The translations under genes and the position numbers were made by a program. The notes under the pieces are model-generated. The model searched no databases. It saw only the letters and a program-made list of their open reading frames with translations, and had not been told where the DNA came from. This document shows positions 19,005 to 20,980 of a stretch of 35,864 bases of DNA, piece by piece; the first letter of the stretch is position 1, and the number at the start of each line of letters is the position of its first letter. The stretch comes from Azospirillaceae bacterium. Its GTDB lineage: Bacteria; Pseudomonadota; Alphaproteobacteria; Azospirillales; Azospirillaceae. The stretch is from assembly GCA_028281465.1 (NCBI GenBank), contig JANQJV010000012.1, forward strand, positions 1 through 35,864, read 5' to 3'.

Positions 19005-19340
19005 ATGATGGAATACGAGAACTTCAAGGCACAAATTGAGTTTGATGCGGAAGACAACATCTTCCGCGGTGAGGTCATCAATACCCGCGACGTGATCGGC
19101 TTTTCCGGTCGATCGGTGGAGGAATTGCAAGCGGCGTTCCGTCAGGCGGTGGAGCGGTACTTGGAATGGTGCCGCAACCGCGAGTTGCCGGCCAACGACC
19201 TCTACACCGGACGAGTCGCGGTCCGGATCAGCCGCGACGTGCATCGGAGCCTGGCGGTGGCGGCCCAGCGCGAGGGTAAGCCGCTCAACACCTGGATTGC
19301 CGAGCGCCTGTCCGAAGCAGTGCTGGGTGCCCGGCCCTGA
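19005..19340 (+). CDS. HicB family antitoxin-like protein with RHH domain
   Basis: This 111-residue HicB-type protein has an N-terminal HicB fold (YENFKAQIEFDAEDNIFRGE, then SVEELQAAFRQAVERYLEWC). A C-terminal Arc-like ribbon-helix-helix follows (GRVAVRISRDVHRSLAVAAQ, then GKPLNTWIAERLSEAV). HicB proteins neutralise the HicA ribonuclease and repress their own operon through this C-terminal domain. No hicA gene flanks it; the upstream gene is a second, shorter HicB-like protein. ATG 19005 has GGAG eight bases upstream. It probably acts as a DNA-binding regulator or a solitary antitoxin. Confidence 0.78.
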   Translation: MMEYENFKAQIEFDAEDNIFRGEVINTRDVIGFSGRSVEELQAAFRQAVERYLEWCRNRELPANDLYTGRVAVRISRDVHRSLAVAAQREGKPLNTWIAERLSEAVLGARP

Positions 19341-19521
19341 GTCCGGCCCTGACTGATGCTCAAACCCATGCCGAGCCTTGCGTCGGGAGCGAATCGGCGC
19401 TAACGTAACGCTAGACGCAATCGCACGTGCCTATGGCCCATTGTGGTTATGCAACGACGTACAGCGTCCTTTTTGGCGGACCGGATGCTCTGTGGGAGCC
19501 GGCCGCGAGAGGGAGGTGGGT

Positions 19522-19557
19522 ATGTTGTCTGTCCACAACGGGGCCACGGTGATGTAG
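19522..19557 (+). CDS. Short leader peptide ORF upstream of ornithine decarboxylase
   Basis: ATG at 19522 opens an 11-codon frame, MLSVHNGATVM, ending at TAG 19555-19557. GGGAGG (19511-19516) sits five bases upstream, a stronger ribosome site than many real genes here have. The stop codon lies inside the GGGGC...GCCCC hairpin and ten bases before the terminator stem. A ribosome translating or stalled here would therefore affect which structures form. It is probably a regulatory leader peptide. Confidence 0.5.
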   Translation: MLSVHNGATVM

Positions 19558-19566
19558 CCCCCAAAC

Positions 19567-19629
19567 AACGCCCGAATGGCATCGCCTGGCCGGTCTTGAG
19601 GACCAACGAACGGCGAGCGGGCGTTTTTT
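19567..19629 (+). terminator. Intrinsic terminator in the ornithine decarboxylase leader
   Basis: AACGCCCG (19567-19574) pairs perfectly with CGGGCGTT (19618-19625). Nested inside are TCGCC/GGCGA (19582-19586 with 19612-19616) and GGTC/GACC (19592-19595 with 19601-19604). Six T residues follow (19624-19629). This stem-plus-T-tract lies about 100 bases before the coding start, so it would stop transcription unless relieved. Confidence 0.7.
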
Positions 19630-19732
19630 CTGTTTTCCGATCCTGTTCGATTACGGCGCGACGGCAAATGACCGTCGTCCGTGACCTGACTGTCGCAACA
19701 CGACCTGTGGCAGTCGGTGGGAGTTGAAAGAC

Positions 19733-20980
19733 ATGGGGCATCTCACCCTGCGTTCGGCAGTCTCGCCCGTGCGGCGCGGCCGTACCACTGATCTGGGCCG
19801 GCGGCCGAGCGTGACCGAAGCGACCTCGATCTTCCGTCCGGCCGAACCCATGCATTGTCTGCGGCCGGCCGCTTTGGCCGACTCGGCGGCGGTGTTCGTG
19901 AATGGCTTTGCTGGCGACGTGCTGTACGCCGTCAAGTGCAATCCCGAGCCGACCGTGTTGCGGGCCCTGTGGGCTGGTGGTATCCGGCACTTCGACGTGG
20001 CGTCGCCGGGCGAAATCCGTCTGACCGCCCAGGTATTGCCGGACGCCCATCTGCATTACATGCACCCGGTCAAGGACCGCGGCGCCATCGCCGTGGCATA
20101 TGGCCATTATGGCGTGCGCGATTTTGCGCTGGACAGCTTGGATGAGGCCGACAAGCTGCACGCCGAAACCCGTGGTGCCGATGATATGGGTCTCATCGTC
20201 CGCCTTGCGTTGCCGAAGGGTCAAGCCCAGCACGATCTTTCCGGCAAATTCGGTGCCGCGCCGGCTGAGGCGGCTGCCTTGCTGCGTTTATTGCGTCCGC
20301 GGGCGCATCGCCTGGGTCTCAGTTTCCATGTCGGATCCCAGTGTCTGGACCCGGCGGCGTATGTCGAGGCCATTGGCCTTGCGGGAGGCGTCATTGCCGA
20401 CGCCGGTGTGGCGCTGGAGGTCCTCGATGTCGGCGGTGGCTTCCCGGTGGTGTACCCAGGTCTCGCCCCGCCTCCGGCCAATGATTATTTCGCCGCGATC
20501 ACATCCGCCGTTGACGCCCTTGGCCTGCCGGCCGGCTGCCGGCTATGGTGTGAGCCGGGGCGGGCCCTTGTCGCGGGCGGTGTGTCTCTCGTGCTCAAGG
20601 TCTTACTGCGCCGCGGCGACAGCCTGTACGTCAATGATGGTGTTTATGGCTCGCTGCATGATTGCCGTTGGCCCGGTGTGCGTTTCCCGGCCCGGCTGGT
20701 ACGGCCGGGCCGGCCGTCCATCGCGCCGGTGCGGCCGTTCCAGGTGTTCGGTCCGACCTGCGACAGCGTGGATCGATTGGTCGAGCCGTTCATCTTGCCG
20801 GACGACGTCCGCGAGGGCGACTGGATCGAGCTTGGTCAGATGGGGGCTTACGGCGCATCGCTGCGCACCGGGTTCAACGGCTTCGACCAGGCACGCCTGG
20901 TCGAAGTGACGGATCCGCCACTGGTCGAAACACCCGGTTTCGCCGTGGGTGGATCGGCGCGGGCTGCAGCCGTGGCGTAA
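19733..20980 (+). CDS. Ornithine decarboxylase-type PLP enzyme (fold III)
   Basis: This 415-residue fold-type III PLP decarboxylase most likely converts ornithine to putrescine; lysine use is possible. The PLP lysine is K68 in YAVKCN. HVGSQ and LDVGGGFP bind the cofactor phosphate, EPGRALV is the next conserved segment, and GPTCDSVD supplies the cysteine (C343) and aspartate of the active site from the partner subunit. The CDS motif is typical of ornithine/lysine decarboxylases rather than diaminopimelate decarboxylase. ATG 19733 has GGGAG nine bases upstream; a TTG at 19724 overlaps that site. Expression is probably controlled by the leader attenuator. Confidence 0.88.
   Translation: MGHLTLRSAVSPVRRGRTTDLGRRPSVTEATSIFRPAEPMHCLRPAALADSAAVFVNGFAGDVLYAVKCNPEPTVLRALWAGGIRHFDVASPGEIRLTAQVLPDAHLHYMHPVKDRGAIAVAYGHYGVRDFALDSLDEADKLHAETRGADDMGLIVRLALPKGQAQHDLSGKFGAAPAEAAALLRLLRPRAHRLGLSFHVGSQCLDPAAYVEAIGLAGGVIADAGVALEVLDVGGGFPVVYPGLAPPPANDYFAAITSAVDALGLPAGCRLWCEPGRALVAGGVSLVLKVLLRRGDSLYVNDGVYGSLHDCRWPGVRFPARLVRPGRPSIAPVRPFQVFGPTCDSVDRLVEPFILPDDVREGDWIELGQMGAYGASLRTGFNGFDQARLVEVTDPPLVETPGFAVGGSARAAAVA

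Follow-up and report, generated by a model that had tools for sequence, protein, structure and literature searches.

The odc mRNA of an Azospirillaceae bacterium probably begins with a leader (19412-19732) that belongs to an alphaproteobacterial leader family attached to polyamine genes, and comparison of its sequence with relatives points to a polyamine-responsive switch on translation of a short ORF, relayed to odc by transcriptional read-through, as its most likely function. A probability of about 0.6 is assigned to this whole explanation, i.e. leader identity, two-fold switch and relay to odc taken together. The window (the whole stretch of 35,864 nucleotides that was analyzed, to which all positions refer) is part of a 6.3 Mb draft genome. 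The product of 19733-20980 is a PLP-dependent decarboxylase (Pfam PF02784, E=2.2e-35; PF00278 is also matched) whose best solved-structure matches are lysine/ornithine decarboxylases (PDB 2plj, E=6.6e-48). A gene for a HicB-family protein (PF05534; 18894-19340, + strand) adjoins the leader on its upstream side.

Parts of the leader

A first-pass annotation had proposed a leader-peptide attenuator upstream of the decarboxylase. The features that it recognized together form the 3' half of a conserved leader that extends further upstream; the RNA core at 19414-19474 and the promoter at 19377-19405 had been missed, and the first lead to them was a weak Rfam alpha-r45 match at 19415-19471. The parts of the leader and the gene that it precedes are:

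19377-19405, + strand: promoter, with -35 CTTGCG (19377-19382), a 17-nt spacer and -10 CTAACG (19400-19405); conserved motif upstream of the core
19414-19474, + strand: alpha-r45-like RNA core (Rfam ar45, 22.5 bits; independent profile; closing-stem covariation)
19434-19476, + strand: 3' half of the core, complementary to the Shine-Dalgarno (SD) sequence, start codon and first codons of the short ORF (joint fold, duplex test)
19479-19505, + strand: hairpin between core and SD, ACCGGATGCTC...GGGAGCCGGC (alignment of leaders, folds)
19510-19516, + strand: SD AGGGAGG, 5 nt before the ATG of the short ORF (sequence)
19522-19557, + strand: upstream ORF of 11 codons, MLSVHNGATVM, stop TAG at 19555-19557 (sequence; conserved short ORF)
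19540-19561, + strand: hairpin across the stop codon, GGGGC 19540-19544 / GCCCC 19557-19561 (position-conserved hairpin)
19567-19629, + strand: hairpin 3' of the stop, AACGCCCG 19567-19574 / CGGGCGTT 19618-19625, with T6 at 19624-19629 (fold)
19733-20980, + strand: odc, ornithine or lysine/ornithine decarboxylase, 415 aa (Pfam PF02784, PF00278; PDB 2plj)

The core is closed by a stem of GACGC (19414-19418) and GCGTC (19464-19468), carries the invariant letters CGCACGTGCC (19422-19431) and GCAACGACG (19451-19459), and is followed by T5 at 19470-19474. From the promoter-like sequence transcription is expected to start near 19412. A CTTG/TTGC motif peaks 43-48 nt 5' of CGCACG in most of 89 leaders, and TTGN at -60 to -34 is present in 80 of the 89; the 19377-19405 promoter is absent from the list returned by a sigma-70 consensus scan of the window. 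The SD, the MLSVHNGATVM ORF and the stop-codon hairpin are present as the annotation had described them, all upstream of the decarboxylase, and its general proposal, a leader that regulates odc and contains a short ORF of translated appearance, is borne out by conservation in relatives and by the conserved promoter upstream. The two findings that it had named as counting against itself, a transcription start downstream of 19629 and a lack of conservation of the short ORF and terminator in relatives, did not turn up, in that this promoter lies upstream of the leader and the short ORF is kept.

Distribution and gene association

The Rfam alpha-r45 model (RF02347) scores the window core at 22.5 bits (E=0.01 in 521 bases), below its cut-off of 40. 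Weak matches to Rfam sR47 and Yar_1 are at chance level. The same arrangement, CGCACGTGCC ... GCAACGACG ... GCGTCCTTTTTGG followed by a hairpin, SD and ATG, was found by alignment in 29 of 30 Azospirillaceae pre-odc loci, the core-SD hairpin reading ACCGGYC...GRCCGGT in relatives. Alignment of related leaders, a check that the first-pass annotation had proposed, shows SD and short ORF to be kept in 28 of the 29 core-bearing Azospirillaceae odc leaders, with ORFs of 11, 12 or 17 codons that end in TAG, TAA or TGA, but neither the 11-codon peptide nor the T-tract is conserved. In one Azospirillaceae locus (L025) the 11-codon stop is lost and the short ORF runs 31 codons.

Since the leader model R1 itself contains the window, a separate profile was built from 62 leaders outside the Azospirillaceae; with it, window positions 19412-19552 are matched at E=2.7e-30, and nothing else does better than E=1.2. 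A further copy of the core elsewhere in this genome was discounted, as the runners-up had E=0.7 and 2.7 and were taken as chance. R1 detects the core in 73 of 385 alphaproteobacterial genomes, representing 50 genera, and a sample of 299 genomes from the phylum gave 18 matches, all within the Alphaproteobacteria and none outside. Of the 73 loci that were fetched, 62 have odc as the next gene, 6 have homospermidine synthase (hss; calls that rest on a saccharopine-dehydrogenase-type domain and on reading of the sequence) and one has speD with speE behind it; the remaining four comprise two other genes and two contig ends. An exact core-pattern scan of named genomes, whose Azospirillaceae matches include Azospirillum, Niveispirillum and Arenibaculum, found 65 loci, some of them truncated at contig ends, and every one of the 65 has an SD and ATG at 53-71 nt beyond the core. 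The SD belongs to odc itself in roughly a dozen of the 73 loci, a class that is partly approximate (e.g. L108, L130, L132). At the level of sequence these comparisons establish the homology of core, SD and ORF start, the gene association and the positional conservation.

Several individual loci depart from the window arrangement. Before homospermidine synthase (L078, L090, L099, L100, L113, L139) the core is followed by a short ORF of 14-16 codons, e.g. MFGHELASPLSFER, and upstream of speD-speE (L123) by an 8-codon ORF, MSGSSLRG. In L092 the SD and ATG are those of the next gene itself, which resembles glutamine amidotransferases and may encode a polyamine-related enzyme. In nine loci (L083, L086, L097, L104, L105, L106, L107, L115, L126) the SD and ATG that follow the core are in frame with odc, which thereby gains an N-terminal extension that in several contains the hairpin found at +14 to +22. 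In L084, a sibling of these odc-fused loci, a stop codon ends the same frame at a length of 12 codons; short ORF and odc N-terminus may thus have arisen one from the other, in either direction.

Two competing folds

In the joint fold of 19412-19575 (z -2.43, matched by 1 of 200 shuffles) the SD, start codon and first codons are taken up by pairing with the core's 3' half. The predicted pairings are 19434-19439 with 19541-19546, 19441-19446 with 19533-19538, 19451-19462 with about 19520-19530, and core 19467-19476 with the SD region. In a duplex test over 63 non-redundant loci each core was paired with its own and with other loci's SD/ORF segments, with correction for row, column and composition-interaction effects. 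Native duplexes are stronger than swapped ones (z -7.9, p 4.8e-9, the p-value being indicative only, as the loci are related); the test is conservative in that swaps were made among related loci. The start-codon segment alone gives z -5.85, the window's own value there being -3.34, and control duplexes with downstream segments, an upstream segment or a reversed segment are null (-1.6 to +1.0). The joint minimum free energy has a mean z of -1.77 over the 63 loci, the value of the window itself being -5.0. The closing stem of the core co-varies as well (z -5.1 in a test of the same native-versus-swapped type), with the variants GACGC/GCGTC, GCCC/GGGC, GACGT/ACGTC and CCGTC/GACGG. A one-to-one covariation of GCAAC with codons 2-3 was considered and dropped, as GTAAC-core loci show no consistent change in these codons; for this reason, and because the duplex register varies between loci, only the whole-segment test is relied upon.

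Because both the closing stem and the complementarity of core to SD/ORF co-vary between genera, two competing conserved folds are indicated: fold 1, the compact structure of alpha-r45 with GACGC/GCGUC as its closing stem, and fold 2, a long hairpin that lays the 3' half of the core on the SD, AUG and first codons. The covariation demonstrates both as predicted structures, and it supports a switch controlling ribosome access to the short ORF. Mutually exclusive structures, which the first-pass annotation had also claimed, are thus conserved in relatives, but the key switch lies upstream of the ORF rather than between ORF and terminator. Likewise GTTGT, which had been proposed to capture the first terminator arm, is in the predicted fold paired upstream with the alpha-r45-like core instead. 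In the window the predicted energies are -67.7 kcal/mol for fold 2 and -51.7 kcal/mol for fold 1, i.e. fold 2 is the more stable by 16, and in predicted fold 1 the U-tract still pairs with the SD, leaving it largely paired; the energies therefore do not explain the polarity of the switch or release of the SD.

These results bear on the status of the core as a separate molecule. Alpha-r45 has been described as an sRNA without function, and its window counterpart looks instead like the segment with which the odc mRNA leader begins. Were the core an independent trans-acting sRNA ending at T5 19470-19474, the ORF and odc leader would be separate and the complementarity between them incidental. A separate alpha-r45 transcript beside speF in Bartonella bacilliformis, co-precipitation of S. 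meliloti alpha-r45 with Hfq (both PMC7717549) and the resemblance of closing stem plus T5 to a terminator speak for such an sRNA. However, the 47 nt between core and ORF hold neither a second promoter nor room for one, the T-run is replaced in several loci (e.g. GCGTGATCCCC in L140, GCGTATCCACC in L142) where SD and ATG are kept, a polyamine gene is nearly always next, and the complementarity to SD and ORF co-varies; we regard a free-standing sRNA as quite improbable.

Two mutually exclusive conserved folds, one of them covering the ribosome binding site, are what is expected of a riboswitch, and a more specific version of the switch would make the core the aptamer for a polyamine-related metabolite and fold 2 the expression platform. 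The invariant nucleotides of CGCACGTGCC and GCAACGACG, the regulon of polyamine genes and the competing folds favor this, as does the standing of speF as an orphan riboswitch candidate for which further conserved sequence was found in 2018 (PMC7266159). The A. tumefaciens speF region bound none of six pathway metabolites, namely ornithine, lysine, DAP, putrescine, cadaverine and spermidine (PMC1273637), which counts against a direct riboswitch; its ligand might then be homospermidine, norspermidine, agmatine or another compound outside the 2005 set. A direct riboswitch is conceivable at somewhat under even odds, a likelihood that overlaps with that of the preferred explanation because it is the special case of the polyamine-responsive switch in which the sensor is RNA.

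The short ORF and its peptide

The 11-codon peptides differ between genera and have a dN/dS-like ratio of 1.0 (crude, from few sites), which lends no support to the earlier suggestion that the 11-mer is an ornithine or polyamine sensor. The window peptide lacks Arg or Lys runs, and its C-terminus, ATVM, compares with ALRR, AVKR, ALVP and AMSI in relatives; the leader of an Azospirillum brasilense strain encodes MLALHGRALRR.

Upstream of a second odc type lies a short ORF of 32-69 codons, of which the 36-codon group is conserved as protein: its ratio is 0.38, with changes mostly at third positions, indicating purifying selection. Many of these second-type peptides end near S-S or T-S (...DPSSLS, ...NPLSSMCSRQ, ...SSMRAPD, ...KTSI), as in loci L154, L162, L164, L188, L192 and others, and in L080-L098 and L131-L144, and the second serine of the S-S motif is AGT in most copies read. 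Those tested have no Pfam match and no convincing NCBIfam match. Judged from their sequences they are possibly arrest peptides. Consequently, given ratios of 0.38 and 1.0, a sensor peptide is possible before the second odc type and unlikely in the window.

The same evidence weighs on an attenuator of the SpeFL/TnaC type, in which the 11-residue peptide or its codons would sense ornithine, arginine or a polyamine, the stalled ribosome would decide between terminator and antiterminator, and the core would be accessory. The window does have an SD, a length-constrained ORF, a stop-codon hairpin and a probable terminator, and the longer ORFs before the other odc type have both purifying selection and the C-terminal S-S motif; against this stand the ratio of 1.0 for the 11-codon peptides, the absence of Arg/Lys runs and the divergent C-terminus of the window peptide, and the restriction of the proposed antiterminator to the window. 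The letters of that antiterminator, GGG+GTTGT pairing with ACAACGCCC, do exist, and the sequences are absent from related leaders. Control by such a stall is accordingly judged unlikely, if somewhat less so than a free-standing sRNA.

Hairpins downstream of the short ORF

Hairpins that start 14-22 nt from the ATG are enriched over 82 loci (Stouffer z 9.0, with control offsets at -1.3 to 2.2); in the Azospirillaceae-only subset z is 3.3, and there the hairpin straddles the stop. The hairpin after it opens with its 5' arm 9 nt past the stop in the window and 4-9 nt past it in most Azospirillaceae loci, with arms that differ by locus (AACGCCCG/CGGGCGTT, TAGCCGGT/ACCGGCTA, CTGGTC/GACCAG, GGCAAATC/GATTTGCC); in these predicted structures the distance from the short-ORF stop to the next hairpin is thus shown to be fixed.

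The intrinsic terminator with T-tract of the first-pass annotation stands in part. Hairpin and T6 are in the sequence, and on the predicted fold 19567-19629 is probably an intrinsic terminator in this genome, but folded alone the hairpin (-25.5 kcal/mol) is only modestly better than shuffles (z -1.5, 16 of 200), and, apart from the window, just 4-5 related loci have a T-rich tail after the second hairpin. A terminator common to the whole Azospirillaceae family was ruled out on the same grounds, the T-tract being present in few loci; since most relatives lack it, read-through there could be Rho-dependent or of a different kind.

Proposed mechanism

The polyamine-responsive switch would have the following order: an alpha-r45-like sensor or switch core at the 5' end of the mRNA, the RBS hairpin, the short ORF, the post-stop hairpin and odc. 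Fold 2 would keep ribosomes from translating the short ORF. If the ORF is being read, a ribosome at its stop codon would cover the 5' arm of the 19567-19629 hairpin and transcription would reach odc; without translation of the ORF, transcription would end before odc. We infer this relay from short-ORF translation to odc read-through. Where the SD serves odc itself, fold 2 would act on that gene directly and silence it. With odc, hss and speD as its targets, the switch is presumed to respond to polyamine status, and the sensor could be RNA, protein or the translation apparatus.

Relation to known leaders

The speF element of 2005 (RF00518; PMC1273637) starts at a putative transcription start with a stem bearing a large insertion, followed by a long stem-loop; from position, the large-insertion stem would be alpha-r45. 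The order alpha-r45 / speF / odc is already in the literature (PMC7717549), and Rhizobiales loci that match Rfam speF (L033-L040) have an alpha-r45 match 8-9 nt upstream, with cores that align with those of the Azospirillaceae. The window leader resembles Rhizobiales alpha-r45 in its invariant core, closing stem, T-run and position directly before the speF/odc leader, and differs in that its core is about 60 nt rather than 148, scores well under the cut-off and precedes a strong SD and short ORF. It resembles speF (PMC1273637) in lying upstream of a COG0019-type odc with conservation from near the putative start, and it follows the alpha-r45 stem as speF does. The comparison with the Rfam speF model (cut-off 37 bits) that the first-pass annotation had suggested gave no window match at gathering, nor at E<=10 in 19340-19860, so that 19508-19629 is not called speF, and no Azospirillaceae genome examined exceeds the cut-off. 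The suggested relation to alphaproteobacterial speF is therefore supported in kind, by the shared order of alpha-r45, following hairpin and odc, though not by a match to RF00518. Unlike the Azospirillaceae and many others, Rhizobiales-type elements have no conserved ATG ORF after the core; short ORFs with AUC, AUU or TTG starts in the Rhizobiales speF element were considered and rejected, their lengths not being conserved. No leader peptide is mentioned in the available part of the 2005 paper (PMC1273637), whereas the window leader has an explicit short ORF.

In the Salmonella speF leader, translation is reported to prevent termination through a ribosome that, when at the stop codon, blocks a "downstream of stop" hairpin (PMC6386406). 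This enterobacterial leader (orf34/SpeFL) shares with the window a short ORF before odc, translation of which up to the stop masks (or, in the window, would mask) a hairpin. It differs in having 34 codons, two regulatory Arg codons and Rho termination, as against 11 codons, no conserved peptide and a putative intrinsic-type terminator, and no upstream switch core has been described for it; a hairpin just past the stop, where a terminating ribosome would reach it, is found in the window and a 34-codon peptide with conserved regulatory residues is not. By analogy the two leaders are parallel in mechanism, with no sequence relation. The trp/his-type attenuators likewise have a short ORF, a hairpin near its stop and, before the structural gene, a terminator (a probable one in the window), but the window ORF has no run of end-product codons and the strongest co-varying alternative pairing uses the region upstream of the ORF.

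Significance

Judged against the open-access literature, the window leader is a new version of the alpha-r45/speF region, one that includes an explicit short ORF. speF was described in 2005 and has been an orphan among regulatory RNAs ever since, and alpha-r45 has counted as an sRNA with no function assigned; it now appears an even bet that the two are parts of one alphaproteobacterial polyamine switch for odc, hss and speD, which flips between folds and drives either the enzyme or a relay ORF, and the results suggest how the two parts may work together. Treated as one leader they have a target set (odc, hss, speD), an output (SD and ATG at a fixed distance) and a testable switch, and would provide a better construct for ligand searches. 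The short ORF appears to work by relaying the signal and not by encoding a sensor peptide, which adds a case of this kind, and a parallel emerges between the unrelated odc leaders of gamma- and alphaproteobacteria.
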